Virus record (IMG/VR): IMGVR_UViG_3300047552_000114
Coordinates: 1 to 35,802 of that record
Reading direction: 5' to 3' (one strand)
From: a virus
Length of the DNA: 35,802 bases
Shown here: positions 1,882 to 25,084 of the stretch, one piece after another
How the letters are laid out: each line of letters begins with the position of its first letter
Numbering within the stretch: position 1 is the stretch's first letter
Position numbers and translations under genes: made by a program
Notes under the pieces: generated by a model
The model's input: only the letters and a program-made list of their open reading frames with translations
Told to the model about the DNA's origin: nothing
Databases searched by the model: none

Positions 1882-1911
1882 TCTAGCACCCTAGATCGCG
1901 CTGTGAAGCGC
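1881..1911 (+). promoter_or_regulatory. Two adjacent hairpins in the leader of the terminase genes, one with a GNRA loop
   Basis: ATCTAG-CACC-CTAGAT (1881-1896) is followed after one base by GCGCT-GTGA-AGCGC (1898-1911). The second has a GNRA tetraloop and belongs to a four-member family (see 3596, 13918, 24437). The SD GAAGGA and ATG 1929 follow within 20 nt, so the element is part of the terminase leader mRNA. Confidence 0.6.
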
Positions 1912-1928
1912 TTAGAAGGAAAAGACAA

Positions 1929-2273
1929 ATGGCAAGGCCAAGGATTATATCCAGCCCAGATGAGGCATGGGAAAGAGGGCAAGCTTTCTTTAAAGAAAGA
2001 CGCTCACAAGATCGCCCATTGACGGTAACAGGATTGGCTTTGGCACTTGGCCTTAACAGTCGTCAAGCATTGCTAGATTACGAAAATAGACCAGAGTTTA
2101 TTGACACGATAAAAGCACTAAAGTCTGAGTGCGAAGAATACGCAGAAGAGCGCATCTTTGGTGGCAATGCAGCGGGGGCAATATTCGCCCTGAAGAACTA
2201 TGGCTGGACTGATAAGCAAGAGATTGACCAGAAGGTTGACGGCAATCATGTTTATACATGGCTGCAATCGTAA
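1929..2273 (+). CDS. terS: Terminase small subunit
   Basis: 114 aa, with SD GAAGGA 8 nt before the ATG. The pattern is typical of small terminase subunits: an N-terminal RPRIISSPDEAWERGQAFF segment, an HTH-like region (LTVTGLALALGL, then SRQALLDYE), then a helical ECEEYAEERIF and a GNAAGAIFALKNYGW motif followed by DKQEID. The small subunit recognises the packaging site and loads the ATPase subunit. It overlaps the large-subunit gene by 16 nt. Confidence 0.85.
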   Translation: MARPRIISSPDEAWERGQAFFKERRSQDRPLTVTGLALALGLNSRQALLDYENRPEFIDTIKALKSECEEYAEERIFGGNAAGAIFALKNYGWTDKQEIDQKVDGNHVYTWLQS

Positions 2274-3595
2274 TACCGTATGCCCCACGGCAGGCGTTTA
2301 AGCCGCTACACAACAGAACGCAACGATGGGCAGTAGTAGTAGCCCACAGACGAGCAGGCAAGACTGTTGCCTGTGTCAACGAGCTAATCAAGGCCGCAAT
2401 CACATTCAAAGGCAATGATGGGCGCTTTGGATACGTTGCCCCCTTCTACTCACAAGCCAAGTCTGTTGCATGGGACTACCTAAAGCGATACTCAAGCGTA
2501 ATACCGGGGATCACAGTAAATGAATCAGAGTTGCGGATTGATTACCCGAATGGTTCACGCATTCGTCTTTTTGGTGCTGATAATGCTGATGCCCTACGAG
2601 GTCTGTTTTTTGACGGAATCGTTGCAGACGAGTATGGAGATTGGAAGCCTAGTGTTTGGGGTTATGTCATACGCCCTGCTCTGGCTGACCGAGGGGGCTG
2701 GGCAGTCATTATCGGAACGCCTAAAGGCCGTAATCAGTTCTTTGAAATATACCAGTACGCAGGCATAAGTAAAGAGTGGCTATGCTTGACTATTCGGGCA
2801 AGTGAATCAGGACTACTTCCAAAGTCAGAGTTAGACGCACTACGAGAAGAACTGACAGAAGATGCGTGGCGTCAAGAAATGGAGTGCGACTTTGATGCCG
2901 CTATTCCAGGCGCTTACTACGGCAAGGAAATATCCCAAGCAAGAATAGAGGGGCGCATCACCAATGTCCCGTATGACCCAGAGTGGAGCGTATATACAGC
3001 TTGGGACTTGGGCTTTAGTGATGACACGGCTATCTGGTGGTTTCAGACCATTGGTGGAGAAATACGGGTCATTGACTACTACTCAACCAACGGGGAAGAC
3101 ATTGAGCATTACGCTGATGTAATCCTCAACAAGCCTTACAAGTACGGCAAGCACTATCTCCCGCATGACGCTAGAGCAAAGACACTAGCATCTGGTGGCA
3201 AATCAACCATAGAACAACTGGCGAAGCATCTAGGCATAAGCAAGATGACCATAGCCCCAGAGCTTGGCCTGCAAGACGGCATACAAGCGGCTCGACTCGC
3301 CTTTCCCAAGGTATGGTTCGACAAGGTCAACTGTATAGACGGGGTTGACGCATTAAGCCTGTATCAGCGTGAGTATGACGAAGACAAGAAATGCTTTAGG
3401 GATAAGCCCCGGCATGATTGGACAAGCCACACAGCAGACGCATTCAGATATATGTGCATCGCATACCGTGAAGAACGCAAGGCCAAGAAAGAAGACGAAA
3501 CACGCTACCCGATACAGGGTACAGAGCGCGGCATAGTTACCGCACCCCTAGACGAGCTATGGGATACCGCACCTAAGAGATCAGGACGCATTTAA
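2258..3595 (+). CDS. terL: Terminase large subunit (packaging ATPase/nuclease)
   Basis: 445 aa. The ATPase domain shows Walker A AHRRAGKT (residues 29-36), Walker B IVADEYG (D124, E125) and the coupling motif IIGTPKG (151-157). The RNase H-like nuclease domain shows acidic residues at D250 (AWDLGFSDD), D304 (LPHDA) and D394 (HTADAFRY). It pumps DNA into the prohead through the portal and cuts the concatemer. Length and motif order are normal for the family. It overlaps terS by 16 nt and is followed at once by a hairpin and the portal gene. Confidence 0.95.
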   Translation: MAAIVIPYAPRQAFKPLHNRTQRWAVVVAHRRAGKTVACVNELIKAAITFKGNDGRFGYVAPFYSQAKSVAWDYLKRYSSVIPGITVNESELRIDYPNGSRIRLFGADNADALRGLFFDGIVADEYGDWKPSVWGYVIRPALADRGGWAVIIGTPKGRNQFFEIYQYAGISKEWLCLTIRASESGLLPKSELDALREELTEDAWRQEMECDFDAAIPGAYYGKEISQARIEGRITNVPYDPEWSVYTAWDLGFSDDTAIWWFQTIGGEIRVIDYYSTNGEDIEHYADVILNKPYKYGKHYLPHDARAKTLASGGKSTIEQLAKHLGISKMTIAPELGLQDGIQAARLAFPKVWFDKVNCIDGVDALSLYQREYDEDKKCFRDKPRHDWTSHTADAFRYMCIAYREERKAKKEDETRYPIQGTERGIVTAPLDELWDTAPKRSGRI

Positions 3596-3607
3596 CGCCG
3601 TGAGGCG
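3596..3607 (+). promoter_or_regulatory. GNRA-tetraloop hairpin before the portal gene
   Basis: CGCC-GTGA-GGCG follows the terL stop codon directly. The SD (AAGGA) comes 2 nt later and the portal ATG at 3619. Relative to the sister hairpins CGCT-GNGA-AGCG, the closing pair has changed from T-A to C-G with pairing kept. Confidence 0.6.
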
Positions 3608-3618
3608 CAAGGATAAGT

Positions 3619-5871
3619 ATGGAAGATATCAAATCATCACAGAGTTGGCAGCTTCAGCTAGACCTTGCGAAGAAAGACCAAGAGAAGTGGCTGGAACGTG
3701 GCAAGAAGATTGTTAAGAGGTATCGTGATGAGCGTGAGCAATCGTTCAATACAGGCGAAAAGAAATACAACATCCTGTGGTCTAACATCAGGACAATGCT
3801 CCCTGCTGTGTATGCCAAGAAGCCGCAAGCAATTGCTGAACGCCGCTATAAAGATCAAGACCCTGTTGGAAGATGCGCCTCTGAGATTCTTCAGCGCTGT
3901 TTGCAATATGAGATTGATACCTGTCCAGACTACGATTCTTCTATTCGTAATAGCGTCCTTGATCGCCTTCTGGCTGGTCGCGGTGTTGCATGGGTAAGGT
4001 TTGAGCAAGCAGAACAGTTAGAGCAAGAAGAAGATGCTCTTATCACGGATGATGTAGAGCAAGAGTATAACTATGAGAAGTCACCCGTAGATTATGTCTA
4101 TTGGGAAGATTTCCGCTGCTCTCCCGCTAGAACATGGGAGGAAGTGACTTGGGTTGCCCGTAAGGTCTATCTGTCGCGTGAGGAAGGTGAAGAACGCTTT
4201 GGTGAGGACTTTGCCAAGGTTCCTTTGGTGCATCAGCCTGTTGGCCTCGATGACGAGCTAAAGACCCATGACCTTGAGGGTGATGGCGAAAAGCTCAAGA
4301 AGGCTGTTGTATGGGAAATCTGGTACAAGAACGACAAGACAGTCGTATGGATCGCTGAGAAGCACCCGTACATTCTGGATGAACGTGAAGACCCGTTGCA
4401 GCTAGACGCATTCTTCCCCTGCCCCAAGCCTCTGTTTGCTACGCTTTCCACAGACACGCTAATCCCTGTCCCTGACTATGTTCAGTATCAGGATCAGGCA
4501 TACGAACTAGACTCACTCACAGACCGCATTAGTAAGCTTGTGAAGGCTTGCAAGGTAGTTGGTGTGTATGACGCATCGCAGAACGGTGTGCAACGTATGC
4601 TGACTGAGGGCGTGGATAACACGCTCATCCCTGTAGATAACTGGGCGGCATTCGGTGAGAAGAACGGCGTCAAGGGCGTTGTTGATTGGCTCCCTCTGGA
4701 CATGGTTGTTGCTACCCTTAACGAGCTTTATACGGCCCGTGAAGCGGTTAAACAGACCATCTATGAGGTAACAGGTCTAAGTGACATCATTCGTGGCGCT
4801 AGCGTGGCTAGTGAGACTGCTACGGCCCAACAAATCAAGTCCCAGTATGCAAGTCTGCGACTGAAGGAAATGCAGAACGATGTGGCTATGTTCGCATCTG
4901 AACTGCTCCGTAGGAAAGCGCAGATCATGTGCAAGTTCTACCGTCCAGAAACGCTTGTAATGATGAGTGGAATGCAGTCAGGTCAAGATGCGCAATATAT
5001 CCCCCAAGCACTCCAACTGCTGAACTCTGATGTACGCAACTTCCGCATTGAGGTAGCAAGTGATTCATTGGTTGAGTTGGATGAAGCCCAAGAGAAGTCA
5101 AGCCGCCTAGAGTTTCTGCAAGCCGCAGGGCAATTCCTTAAAGAGGCAATCCCTGCAAGCCAGCAAGTGCCTGAACTCGCTCCCGTCTTGGGTGAAATGC
5201 TCATGTTTGGAATTCGCTCATTCAAGTCAGGTAGAAACCTTGAGGGTTCGTTTGAGTCTGCACTCCAACAGATGCAACAGAAGGCACAGCAACCACAGGA
5301 GCCGCCCCCCGATCCTGAGATGATCAAGATTCAGCAGCAAGGCCAGATAGAACAAGGCCGTATGCAGATCGAACAGGCAAGACTGCAAATGGAACAGCAG
5401 AAGATGGCGCTAGAGCAAGAAAAGGCGCAGATTGAACTGCAAGCTAAAGCCCAGGAATCACAACTGAAGGCACAGCTTGAACAGGTCAAGGTAGAGGCTG
5501 AAGCGCAACGGGCTGAGTTAGAACGCCAGAAGGCTGAACATGATGCTGCATTGGAAGCACAAAGGTTGGAGTTTGAGCGCTGGAAAGCCGAACTGGACGC
5601 TAACACCAAGATTGTCGTGGCAGAACTATCTGCGAAGACTACGCTTGAAACGGCGGCTATGTCGGCAAACTCCAAGGACGAGACTGACAATGTTTCGGCA
5701 GACGGTTCCACTACTCCCAAAGCAGGGCTTACCGCATTGGTAGAGGCCATGAATGACAACATGGTCAAGCTGATGGAAGCGCAAGACGAGAAACACAGTA
5801 AGTTAATCGAAACAATGAGCAGGCCCAGGGTTGCTACGCTTAGCAACGGTAAGCAAGTGAGGATTCAATAA
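3619..5871 (+). CDS. Portal protein, P22-type, with long C-terminal coiled coil
   Basis: 750 aa, close to the size of P22 gp1. The N-terminal 450 residues have portal-like features: WSNIRTMLPAVYAKKPQA near residue 60, a stem region with TAQQIKSQYASLRLKEMQND, and a YDSSIRNSVLDRLLAGRG segment. Residues of about 560-700 are almost entirely Gln/Glu/Ala/Lys heptad-like sequence, fitting the helical barrel of P22-like portals. The portal is the dodecameric DNA gate at one capsid vertex and the docking site for terminase and then the adaptor. It follows terL and ends in a TAATG overlap with the next gene. Confidence 0.88.
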   Translation: MEDIKSSQSWQLQLDLAKKDQEKWLERGKKIVKRYRDEREQSFNTGEKKYNILWSNIRTMLPAVYAKKPQAIAERRYKDQDPVGRCASEILQRCLQYEIDTCPDYDSSIRNSVLDRLLAGRGVAWVRFEQAEQLEQEEDALITDDVEQEYNYEKSPVDYVYWEDFRCSPARTWEEVTWVARKVYLSREEGEERFGEDFAKVPLVHQPVGLDDELKTHDLEGDGEKLKKAVVWEIWYKNDKTVVWIAEKHPYILDEREDPLQLDAFFPCPKPLFATLSTDTLIPVPDYVQYQDQAYELDSLTDRISKLVKACKVVGVYDASQNGVQRMLTEGVDNTLIPVDNWAAFGEKNGVKGVVDWLPLDMVVATLNELYTAREAVKQTIYEVTGLSDIIRGASVASETATAQQIKSQYASLRLKEMQNDVAMFASELLRRKAQIMCKFYRPETLVMMSGMQSGQDAQYIPQALQLLNSDVRNFRIEVASDSLVELDEAQEKSSRLEFLQAAGQFLKEAIPASQQVPELAPVLGEMLMFGIRSFKSGRNLEGSFESALQQMQQKAQQPQEPPPDPEMIKIQQQGQIEQGRMQIEQARLQMEQQKMALEQEKAQIELQAKAQESQLKAQLEQVKVEAEAQRAELERQKAEHDAALEAQRLEFERWKAELDANTKIVVAELSAKTTLETAAMSANSKDETDNVSADGSTTPKAGLTALVEAMNDNMVKLMEAQDEKHSKLIETMSRPRVATLSNGKQVRIQ

Positions 5872-6269
5872 TGCCAACAGCAACCTATGAAAAGTTCCAA
5901 CCGGCTATTGAATTGATGCTTGAAGGGGGCAACCTCGGCACAGAAACCTATGCGCTTAAGCTTGCTACCGCACGGACGCTCTCAAGTGGTGCAATCACCG
6001 AAACAACTAACGGTGGCGGCTATACCACAGGGGGCGTTGCTGTATCTGTAGCCACAGCAGGGCAGGCCGCTGGCACATATACCCTTGCCATAACTCAGCC
6101 TACTAACCCTGTATGGACAGGTTCTGGTGGCGGCTTCACATTCCAATATGTAATCCTGACGGGTTCTGTGTCTGGGAATATCGCATCATGGGATTACGGG
6201 TCTAGCCAAACGGTTGCGGCTGGTGAAACTCTGAGCGTTACCCTTACTACGATTCTGACGGTAGCGTAA
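5871..6269 (+). CDS. Small beta-rich structural protein (unrecognised)
   Basis: 132 aa, joined by TAATG overlaps to the portal gene upstream and the repeat protein downstream. The composition is Gly/Thr/Ser/Ala-rich with alternating hydrophobic residues (YTLAITQPTNPVW, then FTFQYVILTGSV). It looks like an all-beta virion or decoration protein. The C-terminus AAGETLSVTLTTILTV is typical of phage structural proteins of this kind. No catalytic motif is seen. Confidence 0.65.
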   Translation: MPTATYEKFQPAIELMLEGGNLGTETYALKLATARTLSSGAITETTNGGGYTTGGVAVSVATAGQAAGTYTLAITQPTNPVWTGSGGGFTFQYVILTGSVSGNIASWDYGSSQTVAAGETLSVTLTTILTVA

Positions 6270-7900
6270 TGGCCCTCTATCACGTTTACAACCAGACTGT
6301 TGGTGATGGCACAGCCACATCTGTCGTTCGTCCTAGTGATTGGAACTCTGCCCACAGTCAGCTAGTAACGCTCTCTGGCAACACATCGGGCGCATCTACT
6401 GCATCTGGCACGAATATTGTATTTCAAGGTGGCAACAACGTAACAGCATCGGTTAATCAGGGTGCTAACGCTGCCACTATCGTATTTAGTGGTGCTAATA
6501 CAGTCGCGCAGACGGTACAGACGCAGCCATCAGGCAACATCGTAGGTGCAGGCTTCACCTCTACCACTACCGCAGGCACAGCGGTTGTAGCAACGCAGAA
6601 CAGCAACGGTTTAAGCATGGGTGTTCCAACGATCATCACCAATGCAATAACGACTGCCAGAGCATCTAATGACGCTGTTGGACTGAATACCGCAGGCACT
6701 AACGTAACCTGGACTGTAAACAGTAGCGGCATCAGCCTTAACGCAGGCGCATACCTTACTACTGCGGCTAATAGCACTCATAGCCACAACTTTGCTACGA
6801 CTACGACTAACGGCGCAAGCATCGTTGTAGGCACGGCTAACAGCGCAGGGGCAACCATTGGGGTTCCAGCCTTCCTGACGACTGCTAGAGGCTCTACGGA
6901 CGCTGTAGGGCTTAATACGGCCCAATCTAACGCGACTTGGACAGTCAATTCTAGCGGCATCTCATTCGATGGTCGCGGATACGCAGGTACAGGCACTAGT
7001 GCTACCAACGCAACATTGACGTTGAACAGCAACGGGCTTCAAATCTCTGTGGCTGGTGGTGGTGTAGTCAACCAGACAGGCCCGAATATCGCTGTAGCAG
7101 GTTCTACGGTTACTAGCGGTGACGTTGTATTCAGTAACAGTAATGGCGTTACTTTTGGAATGAACGGTTCTACTGTAACGGCTAGTGTTAATGCAGGTGG
7201 TGGTGGCGAAACGCTAACCAACTATGTGCCGTATCAGCTTGGGGCTAATACCACATTCAGTTCGCTCGGTCAGAACACGGTTTACTTCCAGCATTTCATC
7301 CCTGACGAATACGTCACTATGTCGAAGATTGAGATGTACGCTAGAGGTTCATTCGTATCTTCTAGCAACTCTCAGGTGTACGCACAGACCGTCCATTATG
7401 GTCTGTACTCGCAAGACACAGGGGCAAGCAGTACCCGTATGACGCAGATCAGTTCGTCCTCTTTGGTGTATAGCGTCAGTTACAACTCAACTACTGCGGC
7501 AGGGTTCACCATCAGTCAAGGTGCGGGTTCGTTTACATCAACGACCAATAACACATCAATGTTGACTAGCGTTAGTGGCCCATTTCACTTGTATCTGCCG
7601 TTTGAAGGCTCACTTGCTCCAGATGTTAAGTACGCCTTTGGCATTCGGGTATCAAGTGCAACCACAGGTAACACAGGCGCACACAGGTTTGCTCCGCTTG
7701 CTCTGTCAATGATGGCAACGACCAACATGGCAAAGATGTACACATCAACGGTAATCGCCTCTGCCAACTCATTGGTTGGTGATAGGGATATGGGCTTTTA
7801 CGCAACTACGTCTGCCTCTCTGCCTGTAAGTTACGCAACATCGCAACTGAGTCAGGTTGTATCTAGGCAGCGTTTTTACCTTCAATTTGAACAGAACTAA
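6269..7900 (+). CDS. Repeat-containing fibre-like structural protein
   Basis: 543 aa. The first 60 residues (HVYNQTVGDG, WNSAHSQLVTLSGNTSG, ASGTNIVFQGGNNVT) recall a domain shared by many phage fibre-like proteins. An imperfect tandem repeat with a 76-residue period is visible: residues 131-156 and 207-232 share the VGLNTA..N.TWTVNSSGIS core. From about residue 320 the sequence changes to a compact beta-rich domain without repeats, a plausible receptor-binding head. Composition is Gly/Ser/Thr/Asn-rich with few charges. A trimeric fibre or appendage is inferred. Confidence 0.65.
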   Translation: MALYHVYNQTVGDGTATSVVRPSDWNSAHSQLVTLSGNTSGASTASGTNIVFQGGNNVTASVNQGANAATIVFSGANTVAQTVQTQPSGNIVGAGFTSTTTAGTAVVATQNSNGLSMGVPTIITNAITTARASNDAVGLNTAGTNVTWTVNSSGISLNAGAYLTTAANSTHSHNFATTTTNGASIVVGTANSAGATIGVPAFLTTARGSTDAVGLNTAQSNATWTVNSSGISFDGRGYAGTGTSATNATLTLNSNGLQISVAGGGVVNQTGPNIAVAGSTVTSGDVVFSNSNGVTFGMNGSTVTASVNAGGGGETLTNYVPYQLGANTTFSSLGQNTVYFQHFIPDEYVTMSKIEMYARGSFVSSSNSQVYAQTVHYGLYSQDTGASSTRMTQISSSSLVYSVSYNSTTAAGFTISQGAGSFTSTTNNTSMLTSVSGPFHLYLPFEGSLAPDVKYAFGIRVSSATTGNTGAHRFAPLALSMMATTNMAKMYTSTVIASANSLVGDRDMGFYATTSASLPVSYATSQLSQVVSRQRFYLQFEQN

Positions 7901-7908
7901 GGACTGAC

Positions 7909-8157
7909 ATGGCGCGATATTTCATTACAGGTTTCTCAGGTGGTAGCGGCGGCAACTTTGGCGTTACTGGACAGCTTATTGACCACTCTATTGAGGTTGA
8001 CATGGGTTTGTCTGTGGACAACATTCCAACTGACCCAGCCGCATCAACTTCTGTGCGCCAACAGATTCAAGACGGGCTTGTCCCTGCGTTGAATGCACAA
8101 CTTCCGTCATATCTTGAATTGACGCTGATCGCATCTGACATTGAGTTCGTGTGCTAA
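7909..8157 (+). CDS. Hypothetical structural-region protein
   Basis: 82 aa, with an SD-like AAGGA 7 nt upstream of ATG 7909. It begins MARYFITGFSGGSGGNFGVTGQ and ends LELTLIASDIEFVC, suggesting a small beta protein. It lies between the repeat fibre protein and a 51-aa gene. I do not recognise the family. Confidence 0.6.
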   Translation: MARYFITGFSGGSGGNFGVTGQLIDHSIEVDMGLSVDNIPTDPAASTSVRQQIQDGLVPALNAQLPSYLELTLIASDIEFVC

Positions 8158-8313
8158 ATGGAAACCCGTGATGGCCTCATTGAGTTTCGCATTGAGGAAG
8201 TAGAAGTCCCTCACAAGGGCAAAGTGCGGATTAAGGAAGTATTTCAGTATCGCCAATGCTTCAAAGGCATCTGGACACCGTGGAAAGAAGTAAGCCTGCC
8301 GAAAGGGGATTGA
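8158..8313 (+). CDS. Small hypothetical protein (51 aa)
   Basis: ATG 8158 follows the preceding stop (8155-8157) without a gap, and the frame runs to TGA 8311-8313. The protein is charged and beta-like (LIEFRIEEVEVPHKGKVRIKEVFQYRQCF, split by short turns, ending WKEVSLPKGD). Coding is supported by the close spacing between neighbours and balanced composition. Function unknown. Its end precedes the glycosyltransferase frame by 16 nt. Confidence 0.55.
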   Translation: METRDGLIEFRIEEVEVPHKGKVRIKEVFQYRQCFKGIWTPWKEVSLPKGD

Positions 8314-8329
8314 AATAGAACCGCAGATA

Positions 8330-9049
8330 TTGTCATCTTATGACGGTGGCAAGCACAACGCAGAGATGGAAGAAACCATCAAGCGGCTAAAGAAGGAAGG
8401 CAGCTACAAAGACCTGTCCTGTATCTGGATAACCCCTGCATTTGGGTCTATTCCTACCAAGGCAGTAGCAAGCTGGATGAACACATACGCCCCACCTAAC
8501 GGCAAGTTTGTCAGGATGTGGGCTATGGGCATGGAAGTAGGCGCAGCATTTAGCAGCACTATCGCCTCTATCCTCGCTCACCCAGAACTGAGCACATACA
8601 AGTACATCATCACGGTAGAGCATGACAACATCATCCCGCCTGATGGGATTATCAAGCTGTTAAGCCAGATGGAAGCGCATCCAGAGTATGCCTGTATCGG
8701 TGGCCTGTATTACACGCAAGGCCCAGGTGGAGTAGCCCAGATATGGGGAGACAAGAAAGACCCTGTACCAAACTTTAGACCTCAACTGCCTGACCCTAAC
8801 GGTGGTCTAGTGGAGTGTTGGGGCACAGGGATGGGGTTTAACGCTTTCCGTCTTGATATGTTCAAGGATGAAAAGCTGCGCAAGCCTTGGTTCGTAACAC
8901 AGACAGAAAACGGGGTAAGCACCCAAGACCTGTATTTCTGGAATGACGCCCAGAAGCACGGTTATCGGTGCGCTATCGACTGTTCGGTAAAGGTAGGACA
9001 CTACGACTTGGAGGGTAAGCGGGGAGGAATCCCTGACATGACGTGGTAG
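8330..9049 (+). CDS. Glycosyltransferase, GT-A type (family 2-like)
   Basis: About 239 aa from TTG 8330. A GT-A signature is visible: YIITVEHDNIIPPDG (E97-H98-D99 in the DXD position), then ACIGGLYYT, a WGTGMGFNAFRLDMF acceptor-loop motif, and a C-terminal STQDLYFWNDAQKHGY followed by VGHYDLEG. Such phage enzymes transfer a sugar from a nucleotide sugar to a protein, DNA or glycan. The start is uncertain: no good SD precedes the TTG, and the open frame continues upstream to an ATT at 8309 overlapping the previous stop. It is paired with a methyltransferase gene on the other side of the HNH insertion. Confidence 0.8.
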   Translation: MSSYDGGKHNAEMEETIKRLKKEGSYKDLSCIWITPAFGSIPTKAVASWMNTYAPPNGKFVRMWAMGMEVGAAFSSTIASILAHPELSTYKYIITVEHDNIIPPDGIIKLLSQMEAHPEYACIGGLYYTQGPGGVAQIWGDKKDPVPNFRPQLPDPNGGLVECWGTGMGFNAFRLDMFKDEKLRKPWFVTQTENGVSTQDLYFWNDAQKHGYRCAIDCSVKVGHYDLEGKRGGIPDMTW

Positions 9050-9072
9050 TCACCAATCATTGAACTAATTTA

Positions 9073-9081
9073 TGCTATAAT
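9073..9081 (+). promoter_or_regulatory. Extended -10 promoter of the HNH endonuclease gene
   Basis: TGCTATAAT is a perfect extended -10 element located 34 nt before the HNH ATG at 9115. There is no convincing -35. It gives the inserted gene its own transcription inside the late operon. Confidence 0.6.
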
Positions 9082-9114
9082 TGTCATAGTGTAGTAATGA
9101 CTATGGAGGCAATT

Positions 9115-9801
9115 ATGGATAAATGCGGTAAGGGACATGATTTTGACGAAGCCAACACCTATATAGATGGCAGAGGAAAGCGGAATTGCAGGGAGTGCCG
9201 AAGATTAGCGGCGCAAAGGTTCCGCGACAGGGAAGATTCTACCTACAGGCAGCAGCACAAGAAATTGGTAAGAAAGCCAAAGGCTGATAAGCCTAAAAGA
9301 GTAATCAAGGAAAAGGTTGTTAAAGAGCCTCTTGATATGTCGCCAATAGCTAGGTTTATGCGCCGTTTATCAGTTGCAGGCAACGGATGCTGGATATGGC
9401 TTGGTGGCAGGAATGATGATGGGTATGGTGTTTTTTGCCTTGCAAAAAGAAAAAACATTTCGGCCCATAGATTTTCATATCAATTCCATCGCGGCGAAAT
9501 TGAAAAGGGTCTTGAAGTTGACCATTTATGTAGTTGTCGATCTTGTGTAAACCCAGAGCATCTTGAACTGGTAACTCACGCTGAAAATATTAGGCGCGGC
9601 AAAGAGCGTGGTTCATACAAGAATCACAACTTAATAGGCAAGCTAAATTCAGCAAAAACGCATTGTAAAAACGGTCACCCATACCAAGGTGACAACCTGA
9701 TTATTGACAAATATAACGGTGGTCGCAGATGCAAAATATGCGAGCAAGCTAAGTCAATGCGGTATCGGGAAAAAATTAAGGCAAACAAGGAGAAGGCTTG
9801 A
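9115..9801 (+). CDS. Free-standing HNH homing endonuclease
   Basis: 228 aa. I start at ATG 9115 because TATGGAGG lies 7 nt upstream; the in-frame ATG at 9097 would place that SD inside the gene. The HNH_3 core is at residues 118-150: AHRFSYQFHRGE, then VDHLCS (D136-H137), N146 and H149. Two copies of a zinc-binding motif flank it: C4-x3-H8 with C25-x2-C28, and C184-x3-H188 with C206-x2-C209, each followed by a basic helix. HNH enzymes nick or cut DNA near their insertion site and spread by recombination. The gene separates glycosyltransferase from methyltransferase, and its last codons contain the SD of the methyltransferase. Confidence 0.88.
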   Translation: MDKCGKGHDFDEANTYIDGRGKRNCRECRRLAAQRFRDREDSTYRQQHKKLVRKPKADKPKRVIKEKVVKEPLDMSPIARFMRRLSVAGNGCWIWLGGRNDDGYGVFCLAKRKNISAHRFSYQFHRGEIEKGLEVDHLCSCRSCVNPEHLELVTHAENIRRGKERGSYKNHNLIGKLNSAKTHCKNGHPYQGDNLIIDKYNGGRRCKICEQAKSMRYREKIKANKEKA

Positions 9802-10340: not shown

Positions 10341-10352
10341 AGAAAGGGCGCT

Positions 10353-11287: not shown

Positions 11288-11290
11288 TAT

Positions 11291-13897: not shown

Positions 13898-13917
13898 TCC
13901 TGACCAGATAAAAAACT

Positions 13918-13956
13918 AACGCTGAGAAGCGCTGATTGTGGGGTTGGTCGCCCACA
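13918..13956 (+). promoter_or_regulatory. Leader hairpins before the scaffold/capsid genes, one with a GNRA loop
   Basis: CGCT-GAGA-AGCG at 13920-13931 is a GNRA hairpin; the 15 bases from 13918 to 13932 are identical to 24437-24451. A second stem, TGTGGG with CCCACA (13937-13942 with 13951-13956), follows. The SD AAAGGA and the TTG start come about 10-20 nt later. No promoter is obvious in the 79-nt gap. Confidence 0.6.
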
Positions 13957-13976
13957 AATTGACTAAAGGAAATATC

Positions 13977-14969: not shown

Positions 14970-14979
14970 AGGATAAATC

Positions 14980-15975: not shown

Positions 15976-15985
15976 GGAGACTACT

Positions 15986-16483
15986 ATGTTTATTTCTGGA
16001 ATTGACCCCACAAGCGTCCGCACTTCTTCCCAAGGTGCGGAATTTGCCGTTGGTACTATCGGCTTTAACCAAACCTCTGCTGGCCCGAAAGGCTACATCT
16101 ATGTTCAGGACTCCGGTTCTGGCATTACTGGTGATGGCTATGTCGCGCTGGTTGACGGTTCTGCCTTCACCGCTGTAATGGCAACTACTACCACCTCTGC
16201 CCCCGGCGCTGGTGCTGGTAAGTTGGCAGGTGTAGCCCGTGCTGCTATCGCCGCATCTGGCTATGGTTGGTTGCAAATCTTTGGTGCTGGTACTGTGCTG
16301 GTTGCTGCTTCTGCTGCTGCCTACACTCTGATCAACACTACTGCAACCGCAGGCCAACTGGATGACGATGCAACCGCAGGTGCTGAAGTTGTGGACGGTA
16401 TCGTCCTTGACGTTGCTAACGGTGGTTCTGCCGCTGTTACTGCTGCATGGCTGAACTGGCCCAAGGTAGCACGTACCCTGTAA
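15986..16483 (+). CDS. Capsid decoration / stabilising protein (probable)
   Basis: 165 aa, with SD AAGGAG 8 nt before the ATG. It is rich in Ala/Gly/Thr/Val and beta-like (YIYVQDSGSGITGDGYVALV, then GYGWLQIFGAGTVLVA, LDDDATAGAEVVDGIVLDV). Size, composition and place directly after the major capsid gene match small head-decoration proteins (DUF2190-like in style). A terminator follows 15 nt downstream. An alternative is a minor capsid fibre. Confidence 0.65.
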   Translation: MFISGIDPTSVRTSSQGAEFAVGTIGFNQTSAGPKGYIYVQDSGSGITGDGYVALVDGSAFTAVMATTTTSAPGAGAGKLAGVARAAIAASGYGWLQIFGAGTVLVAASAAAYTLINTTATAGQLDDDATAGAEVVDGIVLDVANGGSAAVTAAWLNWPKVARTL

Positions 16484-16497
16484 TTTAAAAGTTACAC

Positions 16498-16521
16498 AAC
16501 CCCGCTTTCATAGGGGGTTTT
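16498..16521 (+). terminator. Rho-independent terminator after the capsid genes
   Basis: AACCCC (16498-16503) pairs with GGGGTT (16514-16519) around a 10-nt loop, and the T-run continues to 16521. It would lower expression of downstream tail genes relative to capsid genes unless polymerase is antiterminated. Confidence 0.65.
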
Positions 16522-16522
16522 A

Positions 16523-16540
16523 AGAATGGTCAACCATTCT
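16523..16540 (+). repeat. Perfect inverted repeat behind the capsid terminator
   Basis: AGAATGGT and ACCATTCT form an 8-nt inverted repeat with a 2-nt centre (or a 7-bp stem with a TCAA loop). It starts 2 nt after the terminator T-run and ends 32 nt before the next start codon. It could be a second RNA stem protecting the 3' end or a protein-binding site. Confidence 0.55.
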
Positions 16541-16572
16541 CTAAACCTCTTAACTCTCACAAGGCTCCCCAA

Positions 16573-18022: not shown

Positions 18023-19532
18023 ACGGGTTAGTTCTACTGCTACCCTTCCCGCCCCAGTAGGGGGTTGGAACGCCCGCGATTCTCTGGTGAACATGGCTAA
18101 AGAAGATGCAGTCATTCTGGAAAACTTCTTTCCCCTGACCAATGATGTAATGCTCCGTAAAGGCTATTCTAGCTACGCTACGGGCATGACAGGCGCAGTA
18201 GAGACTCTTATGTCCTACAACGCTGGCGCAACGTCTAAGATGTTTGCAATAGCCTCTGGTAGCGTTTATGACGTTACTGCAAGCGGTGCTGTGGGTGCTG
18301 CGGTATTAACGACCCTTGCTAATTCCAGGTGGCAACACGCAAACATCACAACTGCTGGGGGTTCATTCCTGTGGATGTGTAACGGCGCAGACCATGTATA
18401 CACATATAACGGCACCACTTGGACTGACCAACACGCATCCATTACGGGTGTGGCATCTAGTGATTTAATCCAAGTATGCCTGCACATGAACCGTCTATTT
18501 GCGGTTCAGAAGAACAGCCTTAAAGTCTGGTATCTGCCGACCTCATCCATTACAGGCGCGGCATCTGCTTTAGACTTCTCTAGCCTTGCCTCAAGGGGCG
18601 GCTATCTGATGGCTTGCGGTTCGTGGACGCTGGATTCTGGCAGCGGCATGGATGACCACTTTGTAGCCGTTACCTCTGAAGGTGAAGTATTCATTTATCA
18701 GGGTTCAGACCCATCATCCAGCACCACTTGGTCTTTGGTTGGCAAGTACGTTATAGGTCAGCCTGTAGGTAGACGTTGTTTAAGTCAGTACGCATCTGAC
18801 ATTTTGGTAGTTTGTCAAGACGGATTAATGCCTTTATCTAAGGCTTTAATGTCGTCTAGAGTCAATACTAAGTCTAGTCTGACAGACAAGATTCAGTTGG
18901 CTATGTCGCAAGCTGTGACCTCATACGGCACTAATTTCGGGTGGGAGACTTCAATATTCCCCCGCGAAAATATGCTGATTATGAACGTGCCGACAAGCAC
19001 TACGACCTCCGAACAGTACGTCATGCAGACCATTACAGGCGCATGGTGCAAGTTCACCAACATCAACGCCCATTGCTTTGAGATGCTTGGTAACGAAATG
19101 TATTTTGGTGGCGAAAGTGGCGTTGTCTATAAGTTCTGGGATACCAACGCAGACAATTCGACCAACATTAACGCTGAAGCATTGCAAGCCTTCTCTGACT
19201 TTGGTTCTGGCAATCAGAAGTGGTTTAAAGAGGCAAGACCAATCATCTCTACAGACTCCCCCAGTTTGGGGATTTTGTTAGGTCTAAACACAGACTTTGA
19301 CCAAACAGCGCCAACTGGAACACCTACGTTTACCGCATCAACCTCGGCAACGTGGGGAACTTCCACATGGGGAACTGGCACATGGGGTGGCGGGATGACG
19401 CTGAAGAAGAACTGGCAGACTATCGGCGGCATTGGATACACAGGGGCATTGCACATTATCTCTGCCTCCAAAAGCGCAAACATGAGATGGCAGGCAACGA
19501 CATATCTATATGAGAATGGATTTGGATTATGA
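18012..19532 (+). CDS. Tail nozzle / DNA-stabilisation protein (P22 gp10 or T7 gp12-like)
   Basis: 506 aa. I start at ATG 18012 because GGAG lies 7 nt upstream and the protein then opens with a TLPAPVGGWNARDSLVNM motif typical of this family. Much of the sequence is repeated beta blades (DHVYTYNGTTW, NRLFAVQKNSLKVWYLP, EVFIYQGSDPSSSTTWSLVG, GVVYKFWDTNAD), as in beta-propellers of nozzle proteins. It should close the tail tube below the adaptor. It overlaps the adaptor gene by 11 nt and the next gene by 4 nt. Confidence 0.78.
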   Translation: MAGKRVSSTATLPAPVGGWNARDSLVNMAKEDAVILENFFPLTNDVMLRKGYSSYATGMTGAVETLMSYNAGATSKMFAIASGSVYDVTASGAVGAAVLTTLANSRWQHANITTAGGSFLWMCNGADHVYTYNGTTWTDQHASITGVASSDLIQVCLHMNRLFAVQKNSLKVWYLPTSSITGAASALDFSSLASRGGYLMACGSWTLDSGSGMDDHFVAVTSEGEVFIYQGSDPSSSTTWSLVGKYVIGQPVGRRCLSQYASDILVVCQDGLMPLSKALMSSRVNTKSSLTDKIQLAMSQAVTSYGTNFGWETSIFPRENMLIMNVPTSTTTSEQYVMQTITGAWCKFTNINAHCFEMLGNEMYFGGESGVVYKFWDTNADNSTNINAEALQAFSDFGSGNQKWFKEARPIISTDSPSLGILLGLNTDFDQTAPTGTPTFTASTSATWGTSTWGTGTWGGGMTLKKNWQTIGGIGYTGALHIISASKSANMRWQATTYLYENGFGL

Positions 19533-20212
19533 GTTTAAACACTTCTGCGGCATCAGCGGGTTATCAAGCTTTAAGCCCAACTCCATTGGGCGGGATTACT
19601 CTTGGCCTTGGCATGGCAAGTGGGCTATTGGGGGGCAAGGGTGGTAGAGGCACAACATATGAGCCGCAATTCCGTGTTGACCCATCCACAGGAAACTACC
19701 AGATAGCCAATACTGTTACAGGTGAAAGCGCAGACGGAAAGTGGCAGAACGCAAGCAGCACATGGGCTGCGCCTGGATACCAACAAGGTTCTGTTACAGC
19801 TAAACCTGTCCGTGATACAAGCTGGAATCCGTTAGCTGGTGGCAGAGGGGGTAACTCTATCGCAGCAATGGCAGCAGGCAAGCCAGCAGCACCTACCGCA
19901 GCACAGCAGGTAAACACGCAAACAAACGCATTGCGAGATATGACAGGGATTCAAAATCTGGTCAAGTCAAACCCTAACGGAAAGTTTGCCGATTCACAAC
20001 CTTCCCCGCAGGCACTTGCACAGGCGTTGCAGGCCCAACCGCAAGCCGCACAGCAACCCCCGTCCTACATTGACCCGCGAACCGTTGCACCGTATCAAGC
20101 CGCACCTCCTCCCGTTGCTCCTCAAACTGCTAGGACGCCTCAATCCGCACCTCAAGCCGCCCCTGCAAGGGCATTGGGCAACCTTACGGGCGTTTATTCG
20201 GTATTTAAATGA
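19529..20212 (+). CDS. Low-complexity Pro/Ala/Gln-rich virion-region protein
   Basis: 227 aa, ATGA-coupled to the nozzle gene. The N-terminus has a Gly-rich hydrophobic stretch (GGITLGLGMASGLLGGKGG). The second half is Ala/Pro/Gln-rich and probably unstructured. Such proteins near nozzle and ejection genes may be internal or tail-tip components. No family is recognised. Confidence 0.6.
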   Translation: MSLNTSAASAGYQALSPTPLGGITLGLGMASGLLGGKGGRGTTYEPQFRVDPSTGNYQIANTVTGESADGKWQNASSTWAAPGYQQGSVTAKPVRDTSWNPLAGGRGGNSIAAMAAGKPAAPTAAQQVNTQTNALRDMTGIQNLVKSNPNGKFADSQPSPQALAQALQAQPQAAQQPPSYIDPRTVAPYQAAPPPVAPQTARTPQSAPQAAPARALGNLTGVYSVFK

Positions 20213-20613
20213 TCGTAACTGGCAGAGAAGTAGCAAGTTGGGTGTTAAGCCCGCATGGTGGTGAAGCTGGTGAAGATTTCAACGCAATCGGGTGGCAAAA
20301 GGATGATGAACTGATTGCAGGTTTTGCGGTAAATGAATGGAACGGCGTCAACTGTTTTGTTCACATAAGACTAGACGGATACACCCCACGCAAGTTCTGG
20401 TTTGCGATGGTGGATTGGGTCTATAACCAGATGGGATGCGCTCGAATGACCGCGCCTGTTTCTGCATCAAACAATGATTGTATAAAACTGCTAGACCGTA
20501 TGGGCTGGACAAGGGAAGCAACCTTGCCTGATTCGGCATATGACGGAAGCGATCTAATTTTCTTTACATGGAAGAAAGAAGACTGCTTTTTGCTGTCTTG
20601 GGAGAACAAATAA
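20209..20613 (+). CDS. GNAT-like acetyltransferase domain protein
   Basis: 134 aa, ATGA-coupled to the previous gene. It follows a GNAT-like pattern: ELIAGFAVNEWNGVNCFVHIRL (strands 3-4), PRKFWFAMVDWVYNQMGCARM (acetyl-CoA helix region) and SNNDCIKLLDRMGWTREATLP (C-terminal GNAT motif). Similar small proteins occur in structural clusters of podoviruses. A role in modifying a virion or host protein is unproven; it may have lost catalysis. Confidence 0.7.
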   Translation: MIVTGREVASWVLSPHGGEAGEDFNAIGWQKDDELIAGFAVNEWNGVNCFVHIRLDGYTPRKFWFAMVDWVYNQMGCARMTAPVSASNNDCIKLLDRMGWTREATLPDSAYDGSDLIFFTWKKEDCFLLSWENK

Positions 20614-21428
20614 TGGGTAAAAACAAAGCGCCAAAAGCGCCTGACTACACCGCAGCCGCACAAGCCACAGCACAAGGCAATCTTGACGCCTCAAGAGCCG
20701 CATTGTCTGGCAGCTTAATCAATCAATACACCCCTGAAGGTTCGCTACAGTACCAACAGCGCGGGACAGACCAATTCGGCAACCCTCAATACTCTGCCTA
20801 CCAAACCTACTCCCCCGCACAGCAAGCCATTGCAGACCAAGAAAACAAGCTGAATGCTGGCCTGTTGTCTACTGCTAATACAGGGTTAACCTACGCCAAT
20901 GACGTACTTAGCAAGCCCGGAGTAGATACATCAAAACTACCATCTACTGGCATCGACCCCGGACAACAGTATCAAGACGCCATCATGAAGCGCCTGCAAC
21001 CTCAGATTGAGGGTGGGCGCAATATGCTGGAAAACAAACTGACTAACCAAGGCATCATGCAAGGTTCTGAGGCATGGAATAACGCTATCTCTGGTAACGA
21101 CAAGGCTAATAACGACCTGCTTACATCTGCAACTATCAACGGCATGGGAATGGGCCTTAACGCAAATCAGCAAGCCTTCCAGCAGCAAGCCTACAACCAG
21201 ATGCAGCCGATTAACGTCATTAACGCATTGCGTACAGGTTCGCAGGTTTCTGCCCCTAACTACGTTAATACTCCGGGGCAAGCCACAACACAAGGCGCCG
21301 ACCTCTTGGGTGCTGCTCAAGCGCAATACAACGCCTCTCTGGGCGCTACAAACGCTCAGAATGCGGCTAGCGGCAACCTAATGAACGGGTTGTTCGGTCT
21401 GGGCGGCGCATACTTGGGGAGGGCTTAA
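20613..21428 (+). CDS. Internal virion / DNA-ejection protein 1 (probable)
   Basis: 271 aa. I start at ATG 20613, which overlaps the GNAT stop as TAATG and has GGGAG upstream. The N-terminus GKNKAPKAPDYTAAAQATAQGN and the Gln/Asn/Ala-rich helical body are typical of phage proteins placed after the nozzle gene. A Gly-rich hydrophobic tail (LMNGLFGLGGAYLGRA) ends the protein. First of three consecutive genes that fit the T7/P22 ejection-protein set. Confidence 0.65.
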   Translation: MGKNKAPKAPDYTAAAQATAQGNLDASRAALSGSLINQYTPEGSLQYQQRGTDQFGNPQYSAYQTYSPAQQAIADQENKLNAGLLSTANTGLTYANDVLSKPGVDTSKLPSTGIDPGQQYQDAIMKRLQPQIEGGRNMLENKLTNQGIMQGSEAWNNAISGNDKANNDLLTSATINGMGMGLNANQQAFQQQAYNQMQPINVINALRTGSQVSAPNYVNTPGQATTQGADLLGAAQAQYNASLGATNAQNAASGNLMNGLFGLGGAYLGRA

Positions 21429-21429
21429 C

Positions 21430-22743
21430 ATGGCAACCACAGGTGTTCGCAATCTAATGCCCGGAGAATGGGAGTTACAACAACAGCAGATTGACCGCAA
21501 ACGCAAACTCGCTGAAGCCCTTCAACAGCAATCTATGGAAGCACCACAGGGCCAGATGGTTTCGGGCCACTACGTCCAAGCCAATCCCCTTCAGTACATG
21601 GCAAAGATGCTGCAAGGCTACAACGCCAAGAAGGAGATGGAAGGCTACGACCAACAGCAACGGGACATTGTTAACGGTGAACGCGAAAAGCAGACCGCTG
21701 CCGCTAAAGCTTTGGCACAAGCCCTCTCCCCGCAACAAGTCCAACAACCTATCAGCTACGAAGATGCAGGCGGTATGCCGGGGGCAGAACAGACCGTAAC
21801 GCAACAGCCTACGCAAGACCAAGTGTTCGGCGCTTTGGGTAATTACTACTCTCAGGTTGACCCGTCACAACTCGGCAGCATTGCGCTTGAAAAGCTTAAG
21901 TATGGTCAAGCCGATCAAGCCCGTGAAGATCAGCAACAGTTCAACCGTGAAAACTTGAACCTGCAACTGACTACTTCCGCACAAGCAAGACAAGACGCAA
22001 GAGAGCAACGGGCACAAGAATTGCAGTTGCGCCTGCAAGACGCACAAGCAAGCAGGCAAGAACAAGCTTTGGCCCGAAAAGAACTGGCACAGATGCAGAT
22101 AGATGCAAGAACTGACTTGGCTAGGATGCAAGCAGGCAATCAAATGGCTATTGCCCAACTGACAAAGGCCGCCAGCAATCAAGCCAAGGTTTCGCCTGGA
22201 TACAGGGAGCTACCAGATGGGTCATGGGAAGCAATTAAAGGTGGCCCCGCAGACCAAAAGGCATTACAGCAAGGCGCAGGGCGCGAAACTGTTGATTCTG
22301 TTGTGGCTGGACTTAGAACCGCATACGACAGTTTAGACGCTGGTGGCGGCATTACTAGCACGAAGCAAAGCGGCCCGGCAAATATTGGTCGGTGGGCATC
22401 GCAATCAGCAATTGGGCAAGCCATTGGTGGCGCTGTAGGTTCTGAAAACCAAAAGCAACGCGACTCAATTGCACAAGCTAGACCGTTGTTGCTGCAAGCC
22501 ATCATGAAAGCTACAGGCATGAGCGCGAAGCAGATGGACTCCAATGCTGAGTTGAAGCTTTACCTTGCAACTGCTACAGACCCGACAAAGAGTCTTGAGG
22601 CAAACCGCGAAGCACTCGACCGTATTGAGCAACTTTACGGGAGTGGCGCCGGCAATCAGAGCATTACAGGAAAACAGCAAATAATCCCACAAGGGGCAGA
22701 GATGCCAAAGAAAAAGACGGTTAAATTTGGAGACTTGAAATAA
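21430..22743 (+). CDS. Internal virion / DNA-ejection protein 2 (probable)
   Basis: 437 aa, starting 1 nt after the previous stop. Residues of about 160-270 form a long Gln/Arg/Ala coiled coil (QARQDAREQRAQELQLRLQD and on). The C-terminus ends with a basic KKKTVKFGDLK. High Gln and lack of transmembrane helices fit an internal core protein released into the host envelope. It joins the next gene through a TAATG overlap. Confidence 0.65.
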   Translation: MATTGVRNLMPGEWELQQQQIDRKRKLAEALQQQSMEAPQGQMVSGHYVQANPLQYMAKMLQGYNAKKEMEGYDQQQRDIVNGEREKQTAAAKALAQALSPQQVQQPISYEDAGGMPGAEQTVTQQPTQDQVFGALGNYYSQVDPSQLGSIALEKLKYGQADQAREDQQQFNRENLNLQLTTSAQARQDAREQRAQELQLRLQDAQASRQEQALARKELAQMQIDARTDLARMQAGNQMAIAQLTKAASNQAKVSPGYRELPDGSWEAIKGGPADQKALQQGAGRETVDSVVAGLRTAYDSLDAGGGITSTKQSGPANIGRWASQSAIGQAIGGAVGSENQKQRDSIAQARPLLLQAIMKATGMSAKQMDSNAELKLYLATATDPTKSLEANREALDRIEQLYGSGAGNQSITGKQQIIPQGAEMPKKKTVKFGDLK

Positions 22744-24293
22744 TGGACGTTGAGCTTCCTGACGGTACAGTTATTGAAGGCATCCCAGACGGAATTAGCC
22801 GCGCAGACTTGTTGGTGAAACTGCATAAAAACGGCTATAACATATCTAGCCTTGTTCGTCCTGAGAAGATCGGCAGGGATGCGTTTAAAGACGTTTTCAA
22901 GCAAGAGTTGGCAGATAACCCTGTTGGCGCAAACCTAGCTGCTTTCGGCACGGCTGCAAGCGATCTATGGCACGGTGCAAAGCAACTTGTCGGGGCTGAT
23001 GACCCACAAGCCAGAGAAGCAAATGCAATCATGAAGGACGCGCACCCGCTTTCTGCATTAGCGGGGAATGTAGCAATGTACGCAGGTGGTGGTGTTGCTG
23101 CTCCTGTCCTTAATACGGCAAAAGGCGCTATTGCTGGTGGTGCTGCCTTGGGTGCTTTGTCTCCCACAGACAATCCGAATGTTGCCCTTGGAAAGCTGGA
23201 AAACGCTGGTATAGGGGCCGCAGCAGGTGGTGTAGGGGTTGGGTTGGGCAAGGTGGTAGGAAATGCCGTTGGCAACGCTAGGCAAGCCGCTAACACGCTT
23301 AAAAGCCAGAATGCCACAAGAGATGCAACGCAATTGGCATCACAGGAGGCAGGCTATGTTTTGCCCCCTAGCTATGCTGGTGGCGGCACTCTTTCGCGCC
23401 TTGCTGAAGGGGTGTCAGGCAAATACAAGACCAACCAAGCAGCGCAAATATTAAACCAGCGCAACACTAACAACCTTGCTCGCCAGTTTCTTGGAATGCC
23501 AGAAGGTGAAGCGTTTAGCGAGTCTGCCATCCAACGCCTTAAAGACGTTAATAACGTGGCCTATAGAGATGTTGCCGCATTACCTAGCACGGTTACAGGC
23601 CAGCAAACTACTCGGTCGCTTGGAACAGGTGCAACTAGCACAACGCCAATAGCGCAAACTGGCGATGAAGTCCTCAATGCGCTAAAAGATGCGCGGTTTA
23701 ATTCTAAGCTGAATTGGCAGCACTTTAACCGAACTGGCGATCCAGAAGCATACGCAAAAGCTACGGCGCTGGACTCCCAAGCATCAACGCTTGAAAACAC
23801 TCTTGAAGCCATAGCCCAAAAGAATGGCTCCCCTGATCTTGTGAAGTCGCTGCAAGACTCAAGGCGCAATCTAGCCAAAATCCACACGATCGACAGGGCA
23901 ATGAATGATGCAACTGGCGATGTGGATGCTAAAGCATTGGCAAAGGTGCTTGAAAAAGGCGGAATGCTGACAGATGAAGCCGAACAGATTGCAAGATTTG
24001 CACAGGCTTACAAGGATGTTGCTGGTGTTCCTAAATCTGGCGATGCAAACCCGTTTACCGTGCTTGACTACGCTTCTGCCTTGCTAGGGTACGGGGTTAG
24101 CCCTGCTGCGCTTGCATTGCCTGTTGCGCGGGTTGGAAGTAGAGCAGCTATTTTGTCACCAATGGCACAGAAGGCTATGGCAAATAAGTCTTACGGTGTT
24201 GGCCCTACAAAGAAACTAGCGGAAGCTCTTTTGGCCTCTCGTTATTCGCCTATGGGACTCGCTGGCGCCACTCTCCCATCTTTCGCGCAATAG
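22743..24293 (+). CDS. Internal virion / DNA-ejection protein 3 with glycine-rich membrane-active region
   Basis: 516 aa. It opens with VELPDGTVIEGIPDGISRADL, a motif common at the N-terminus of phage DNA-transfer proteins. Residues of about 105-180 are Gly/Ala-rich with glycine-zipper spacing (NVAMYAGGGVAAPVL, GAIAGGAALGAL, GIGAAAGGVGVGLGKVVGNAVG), suited to membrane insertion. The rest is mostly helical. Such proteins form the channel through which DNA enters the cell. Its 3' end is overlapped by a possible antisense gene (24216-24419). Confidence 0.7.
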   Translation: MDVELPDGTVIEGIPDGISRADLLVKLHKNGYNISSLVRPEKIGRDAFKDVFKQELADNPVGANLAAFGTAASDLWHGAKQLVGADDPQAREANAIMKDAHPLSALAGNVAMYAGGGVAAPVLNTAKGAIAGGAALGALSPTDNPNVALGKLENAGIGAAAGGVGVGLGKVVGNAVGNARQAANTLKSQNATRDATQLASQEAGYVLPPSYAGGGTLSRLAEGVSGKYKTNQAAQILNQRNTNNLARQFLGMPEGEAFSESAIQRLKDVNNVAYRDVAALPSTVTGQQTTRSLGTGATSTTPIAQTGDEVLNALKDARFNSKLNWQHFNRTGDPEAYAKATALDSQASTLENTLEAIAQKNGSPDLVKSLQDSRRNLAKIHTIDRAMNDATGDVDAKALAKVLEKGGMLTDEAEQIARFAQAYKDVAGVPKSGDANPFTVLDYASALLGYGVSPAALALPVARVGSRAAILSPMAQKAMANKSYGVGPTKKLAEALLASRYSPMGLAGATLPSFAQ

Positions 24294-24419
24294 CTGATCT
24301 TTAAGCCATCCGTTTTTCATTTTGCGGATGATCAGTATTTTGATGGCAGATGCACCCCAAATAAGGACAACAGCACCAAAAGGTGCAAGGGCATAGCCTA
24401 GTACGTTGTGCCAAGTCAT
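24216..24419 (-). CDS. Possible antisense small membrane protein
   Basis: 67 aa, leftward. It starts MTWHNVLGYALAPFGAVVLI and continues through a hydrophobic helix into a basic segment (IIRKMKNGWLKDQLLRERW). This reads like a real single-TM protein, with positive-inside charges after the helix. The last third overlaps the ejection gene on the other strand and is probably less constrained. No good SD is seen. It sits next to the antisense HNH gene and would fill an otherwise empty 120-nt gap. Confidence 0.45.
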   Translation of the reverse strand: MTWHNVLGYALAPFGAVVLIWGASAIKILIIRKMKNGWLKDQLLRERWESGASESHRRITRGQKSFR

Positions 24420-24436
24420 TAGTTAGCATAACTCTA

Positions 24437-24473
24437 AACGCTGAGAAGCGCAAATCGAAAGGACAGACAAGTG
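24437..24473 (+). promoter_or_regulatory. Orphaned leader: GNRA hairpin, SD and GTG start cut off by the HNH insertion
   Basis: CGCT-GAGA-AGCG at 24439-24450, then SD AAAGGA (24458-24463) and GTG 24471 followed by TCA TTT. This repeats the arrangement before the scaffold gene. The frame from GTG stops after 10 codons (TGA 24501-24503), already inside the antisense HNH gene. Homologous fibre proteins, as I recall them, begin MSF-x-YNGSGTF, so GTG-TCA-TTT looks like the lost start of the fibre gene at 25085. Confidence 0.6.
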
Positions 24474-25025: not shown

Positions 25026-25055
25026 GTGTATCTCACATAATGTTATTGAAGAAAT

Positions 25056-25084
25056 ATTATAACTCATTGAATGGAGAAAGTAAA
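25056..25084 (-). promoter_or_regulatory. Promoter of the antisense HNH gene
   Basis: On the minus strand, TTTACT (25084-25079), a 17-bp spacer and a perfect TATAAT (25061-25056). The start would be near 25049, giving a leader of about 24 nt. The -35 overlaps the spacing between SD and TTG of the fibre gene on the other strand. Confidence 0.65.

Follow-up and report, generated by a model that had tools for sequence, protein, structure and literature searches.

What do four short, closely similar hairpins do ahead of four different gene blocks of a single phage genome? The question is raised by IMG/VR virus record IMGVR_UViG_3300047552_000114, whose full length of 35,802 nucleotides (nt) is referred to here as the window. 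It is a 35.8-kb podovirus-like record with genes for terS, terL, portal, scaffold, major head protein (PHROG 9953), an integrase and a Sak-type annealing protein. An initial annotation had described the hairpins as a covarying family heading late gene blocks. This was borne out and proved to be an understatement, as the same element also heads virion genes in unrelated double-stranded DNA (dsDNA) phages and in single-stranded RNA (ssRNA) phages. The structural part of that annotation is confirmed, and its interpretation is partly supported.

Four hairpins in the window

The hairpins all lie on the plus strand, with exactly the coordinates, stems and loops that had been annotated: GCGCT-GTGA-AGCGC ahead of terS (1898–1911, with a stem of 5 base pairs, bp), CGCC-GTGA-GGCG ahead of the portal gene (3596–3607), and CGCT-GAGA-AGCG in the leaders of both the scaffold gene (13920–13931) and the tail-fibre gene (24439–24450). 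All four were present in both the minimum-energy and the centroid folds. GNRA hairpins with a stem of at least 4 bp and at least three G/C numbered seven on the plus strand, compared to 1.6 in dinucleotide shuffles, and one on the minus strand. As one of 100 shuffles reached the largest count of eight, the window taken alone is suggestive, and it is the related phages that settle the hairpin family.

A covariance model (R1), built from 100 mostly foreign sites, ranked exactly these four sites first in the window, with scores of 27.7 bits (portal), 27.1 bits (scaffold), 21.1 bits (terS) and 15.8 bits (tail fibre, a partial match, 7–22); the next-best match scored 11.7 bits. Three of the four sites are among the 100 model sites, so their scores are partly circular, and the weakest-scoring site, at 24439, lay outside the training set. 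E-values of this model are rough.

Stem pairing and loop specificity

The core of the element is a 4-bp stem (C-G, G-C, Y-R and H-D, the fourth pair being C-G, U-A or A-U) closed by a GNGA loop; (Y)AA precedes the stem and C follows it. When 100 sites were aligned without gaps (A1), the four inner pairs were C-G in 98 and U-A in 2 sites; G-C in all 100; C-G in 83 and U-A in 17; and C-G in 64, U-A in 29 and A-U in 7. Pairing of this inner stem was a criterion for selecting the sites; pairing of the outer helix was not. In the outer helix (columns 1–5 with 23–27) 56.4% of cells were paired, compared to 38.8 ± 1.8 after shuffling, and the covariation score was 0.428, compared to 0.185, and better than in every slid register. 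The outer stem is variable, covarying and often present, and is joined to the inner helix by an asymmetric 3 × 2 internal loop (5′ YAA, 3′ CY). At times the 5′ UAA flank is the stop codon of the preceding gene; the enrichment of UAA was partly imposed by the first scan, and sites outside that scan carried CAA, CAG, CAU or UAA. Sequestration of the Shine-Dalgarno sequence (SD) by the outer stem was considered as its sole purpose and rejected, because outer-stem pairing persists where the SD lies beyond it.

Among all hairpins with 4-nt loops counted in 868 leader zones of family loci, the loops GTGA (69), GAGA (38), GCGA (24) and GGGA (9) stood out, with totals of 140 for GNGA and 6 for GNAA. 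The GNRA loop that had been annotated therefore describes the four hairpins correctly and fails as a general rule. Stems beyond the search pattern were also found (CGTC/GACG, CGCA/TGCG, CGTT/AACG and TGCC/GGCA). Where CGNN-GNGA-NNCG occurred outside that pattern, it was fully complementary in 58 of 67 cases in leaders, compared to 30 of 165 elsewhere (odds ratio 29, p 8 × 10^-23). A tandem scan that was neutral as to the stem (AACGYYGNGARRCG-N5-35-CGYYGNGARRCG) gave 66 loci, with both stems paired in 45 of 50 non-redundant arrays against an expected 1/16 (P about 10^-48). The corresponding control with GNAA loops gave 7 loci, one of them with both stems paired, and no paired leader array. The hairpins are a genuine RNA structure family with GNGA loop specificity.

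Virion-gene leaders of dsDNA phages

At least 120 stretches in IMG/VR matched TAACGCYGNGARGCG with AGGA behind it, compared to 25 loci for the same pattern with a non-complementary closing pair, in a collection whose contigs are redundant. Most matches lay 10–22 nt upstream of the start of a long open reading frame (ORF). Among the matches listed, the genes behind the element encode major head proteins of no fewer than five unrelated families (PHROGs 267/283, 1328, 212, 9953 and 10), scaffolds (PHROGs 3927 and 8865), portals (PHROGs 1216 and 156) and a head protease. Major tail proteins (PHROGs 158 and 584), tail fibres and a terminase gene (terS) are headed as well. The element is on the sense strand, often directly after the stop codon of the upstream gene in a gap between cistrons, and ends mostly 1–10 nt before the SD and 10–22 nt before the start codon. 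It often occurs in tandem, with one to four copies per row spaced 8–33 nt apart, and these tandem copies look like repeated binding sites. Triple arrays of GNGA hairpins were seen in capsid or virion gene leaders of the dsDNA phage loci L458 (7139–7218) and L466 (6812–6890, minus-strand numbering). BLAST matches in SRR5466725_15, SRR6960549_2, SRR7976301_10 and one gokushovirus lay inside coding sequence and were left uncounted.

To what extent is the element kept in relatives of the window phage? Among phages found solely by similarity of TerL, capsid or portal, about 8 of 99 longer loci carry it in such leaders. The terS leader of L005 has an aligned copy (ACGCC-GTGA-GGCGT), and L068 has one in its terS leader (CGCT-GAGA-AGCG) and another ahead of the gene after terL (CGCC-GTGA-GGCG), the latter gene being headed by CGCC-GCGA-GGCG in L024. 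The scaffold-leader hairpin is found at the same place in L010 (CGCC-GCGA-GGCG), L047 (CGCT-GCGA-AGCG), L097 and L118. Corresponding sites thus differ by T-A/C-G changes with stem pairing kept. Neither a loss of pairing in related phages nor an equal frequency of such hairpins at random places, the two outcomes named beforehand as counting against the family, was found, and the finding survived both checks.

In L010 and L047 the double arrangement of the window's scaffold leader, a GNGA hairpin plus a second hairpin, is conserved. Counterparts of the second hairpin, differing in sequence, were noted in L010, L047, L296, L308 and L336, and in L097 and L118 a hairpin resembling an intrinsic terminator sits in its place, directly after the GNGA hairpin. 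The distribution among relatives is patchy: the element was absent from the nine annotated relatives checked (PBR31, P26218, ppBjS10J-1, Venkman, BUCT555, PAE2, Mx8, RHph_TM3_14A and EBPR podovirus 1). Mx8, BUCT555 and ppBjS10J-1 are relatives by capsid and portal, all of them distant, and a megablast search of the window against named phages gave no match. In three relatives (L021 at 14207, L039 at 7848 and L078 at 6090), ACGCC-GNGA-GGCGT is followed by TTAC, apparently away from an SD, which may represent a different use of the hairpin.

Copies in ssRNA phages and prophages

A leader query also retrieved an ssRNA phage of the Leviviricetes, Esthiorhiza.4_8. Its coat leader contains GCGTC-GTGA-GACGC and, 10 nt later, aa-CGCC-GTGA-GGCG-c, followed by AAAGGA and the ATG at 1202. 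At both positions, IMG/VR relatives of this phage have variants with compensatory changes: CGTC/GACG, CGCC/GGCG (with GTGA or GCGA) and GCGCT/AGCGC. Tandem copies occur in coat-gene leaders of L402–L417, L450 and L470 (in L470 after the maturation gene), and upstream of the replicase in L441. Four of the ssRNA phages (L441, L450, L470 and L481) were brought in by the stem-neutral tandem scan; Pfam confirmed levivirus replicase and/or maturation proteins in L441, L470 and L481, and the assignment of L450 rests on the layout of its genes and a coat-sized ORF. Separate ssRNA phages share similar AA/C flanks, the same loop rule, the CG base, the tandem layout and the pre-coat position. Other ssRNA phages, at 33–39% replicase identity, were without the element. 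As copies occur in RNA genomes, the element must act as RNA. In L481, four consecutive GNGA hairpins (1728–1812) follow the replicase gene, and no gene comes after them.

In bacteria, a pattern search of 369 genomes of Aquitalea's class found three sites in two genomes, and those inspected lay within prophages. The covariance model gave four matches in 300 genomes of Aquitalea's order, of which only that in an Aquitalea prophage was genuine; the other three, considered as possible host-gene use, were rejected as chance, lying in coding sequence or in a simple inverted repeat. Prophages with genuine copies were those of Aquitalea palustris and Sterolibacterium, plus one with a tandem before the scaffold gene and a single copy before the capsid gene. 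The element is viral, and apart from prophages bacterial chromosomes are almost free of it. No copy before a bacterial gene, as expected of a host element of 5′ untranslated regions, was found in the 369 and 300 genomes searched. The few named hosts of element-bearing viruses are betaproteobacteria.

Leader context in the window

The terS hairpin is followed by the SD AGAAGGA (1914–1920) and the start ATG at 1929 (PHROG 606, Pfam GP3_package). Directly 5′ of it lies an extra perfect hairpin predicted by folding, ATCTAG-CACC-CTAGAT (1881–1896), with a similar sequence in L005. The portal hairpin sits directly 3′ of the terL stop TAA (3593–3595), a position the element also occupies after terL in L068 and L024, and is followed by the SD AAGGA (3609–3613) and the start ATG at 3619 (PHROG 12082). 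The scaffold leader departs from the initial description of the hairpins as lying just upstream of the SD: its copy is 33 nt before the SD (13965–13970; start TTG 13977), and a second predicted hairpin with a non-GNGA loop, TTGTGGG...CCCACAA (13936–13957), lies between.

The tail-fibre hairpin precedes a minus-strand HNH endonuclease gene (24474–25067; PHROG 1872/6254, Pfam HNH_3), as the suggestion of a displaced original start had implied. This is probably a homing endonuclease gene inserted into the tail-fibre leader. Within 24458–25067, it parts a good SD (AAAGGACAGACAA) from the tail-fibre ATG at 25040, so that the GNGA hairpin lies 590 nt from the gene; the AAAGGA at 24458–24463 is probably the tail fibre's own SD. 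A second HNH endonuclease gene is found at 9097–9801 on the plus strand. The four sites do head gene blocks that follow gaps, as annotated, but two other gaps (8158–8329 and 16484–16572) and the capsid gene (14980) have no copy. A terminator-like hairpin (AACCCC...GGGGGTTTT, 16490–16525) lies downstream of the ORF at 15986–16483, followed by another inverted repeat.

Comparison with known RNA elements

A search of the window with Rfam 15 returned no family with E ≤ 1, and nine element-bearing loci together gave a single chance microRNA match, away from the sites. Lambdoid boxB, part of the nut site for N-dependent antitermination, has a similar small G/C-rich stem and a GNRA-type fold, and the P22 boxB stem resembles that of the element. 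The boxB loop is a GNRNA pentaloop, whereas all model sites have the 4-nt GNGA; the element also sits at many SDs, is found in ssRNA phages and shows no clear boxA enrichment upstream. Upstream matches to boxA of eight of nine positions or better were found in 2 of 95 leaders, compared to about 2.0 in shuffles, with a slight excess at most at seven of nine. Intrinsic terminators have a T run after their G/C stem; in the element, the SD, rich in purines, and then the start codon come next.

Coat operators of ssRNA phages of the MS2, Qbeta and PP7 type are small hairpins at a start region, and those of the MS2 type have a bulged adenosine in a stem of about 8 bp at the replicase start (PMC6513524). 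The element shares with them a short hairpin overlapping or abutting a start region in an RNA phage. It differs in its uninterrupted inner stem of 4–5 bp without the bulged adenosine, in its loop, in lying mostly before coat or capsid rather than replicase, and in being common to dsDNA phages. The T4 gene 43 RNA operator is a hairpin about 40 nt upstream of the start codon with the conserved loop UAAC (PMC3014915). That operator, with its different loop, serves a single gene and an autogenous repressor. In T7, the gene 10 leader has a stem-loop near the SD of the capsid gene. This case differs, too: one gene is concerned, the stem-loop lies downstream of a promoter at the 5′ end of a transcript, and there is no common sequence family. 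The tandem hairpins of mini-ykkC (PMC2864571) are alike in being two similar small hairpins within a leader. They differ from the element in loop and gene setting. Mini-ykkC is the guanidine-II motif, with the loop ACGR, and belongs to bacterial guanidine-related genes. The core also bears a likeness to ribosomal RNA hairpins with GNGA loops, on which the argument here does not draw. The element is apparently undescribed: the open-licence papers searched contain no description, and a subscription journal could hold one.

How might the element act?

The reading we favour, tentatively and from sequence, is that the hairpins form a modular RNA element that acts in cis in the leaders of virion genes, a translation-level signal with a reader in the host. 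The element would act when translation starts: either it would dock where the 30S footprint ends upstream, or an RNA-binding protein of the host would attach there and recognise the GNGA loop, the CG base and the internal loop formed by AA and C. In most leaders the hairpin ends 1–10 nt before the SD, which is at this upstream edge. As ssRNA phages with the element could hardly accommodate a regulator in common with dsDNA phages, the reader should be a host component. Such an element could raise or time virion-protein synthesis, and each headed cistron would become independent of the preceding gene. Several observations weigh against this. Named relatives, among them Mx8, BUCT555, Venkman and P26218, manage without the element. 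In scaffold leaders a second structure is retained between the hairpin and the SD, and minor proteins (terS and portal) are also headed, so that high expression explains only part of the picture. The L481 array, lying behind the replicase with no downstream gene, shows that initiation is not the element's sole setting.

Among the roles first proposed, initiation best fits the position, and stability could still contribute. The main rival, which we regard as unlikely but serious, has intercistronic hairpins shielding downstream 5′ and upstream 3′ messenger RNA ends from RNases of the host, perhaps with the help of a host protein that stabilises them. The position in gaps between cistrons, often right at the upstream stop codon, suits such a barrier, as do the tandem copies and the L481 array, but a generic barrier needs neither a fixed CG base, GNGA loop and AA/C flanks nor such tight proximity to the SD. 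A stem of just 4 bp offers little resistance, and GNAA loops are avoided although they are expected to be about as stable. Cleavage of the message, another early suggestion, is unlikely because it would be self-defeating for an RNA genome. Less probable than a barrier is a coat or other phage protein that binds the hairpin as an MS2-type translational operator or packaging signal. The small hairpin operators of ssRNA phage coats (PMC6513524) are a precedent, arrays of equal hairpins resemble protein sites, and in L441 the array is ahead of the replicase. Against it, at least five unrelated capsid families and the ssRNA phages share the element without a shared protein, the bulged A is missing, and it is coat or capsid genes, not the replicase, that follow most copies. 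Binding of a phage protein as the common role, proposed initially, is also hard to reconcile with ssRNA phages that encode just three or four proteins.

Could the ssRNA and dsDNA copies be alike because both converged on a simple, stable hairpin, without belonging to a single functional class? The core is short, and the ssRNA phages at 33–39% replicase identity lack it, but the loop rule, CG base, similar AA/C flanks, tandem layout and pre-coat place are shared in several ssRNA phages, and GNAA hairpins were not found in such settings, making convergence improbable. We give still less weight to a boxB/nut-like site for processive antitermination in late operons: GNGA should fold in the GNRA manner like boxB, and L097 and L118 have the terminator-like hairpin directly after the element, but the loop is a tetraloop instead of a pentaloop, boxA is not clearly enriched upstream, the element accompanies the SD of each gene and is not placed close to a promoter, and ssRNA phages have no transcription from DNA. 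A palindrome acting in DNA, as an operator or part of a promoter, is close to untenable: the core is indeed an inverted repeat, but its asymmetric loop is oriented by the sense strand, and the element's presence in ssRNA phages already contradicts this reading.

Implications

To our knowledge, no other non-coding RNA element marks virion structural genes in both unrelated DNA phages and RNA phages. It is quite possible, if short of probable, that one host-read RNA signal serves two realms, the dsDNA tailed phages and the ssRNA leviviruses, for virion-protein control, and so constitutes an undescribed, virus-specific leader code of bacterial translation. If this is true, there would be a host factor that recognises viral messages. 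Such recognition might serve the virus, as a signal for translation or stability, or might be something with which the virus has to cope. The element also offers a compact leader signature for annotating the starts of virion genes in metagenomic phages.

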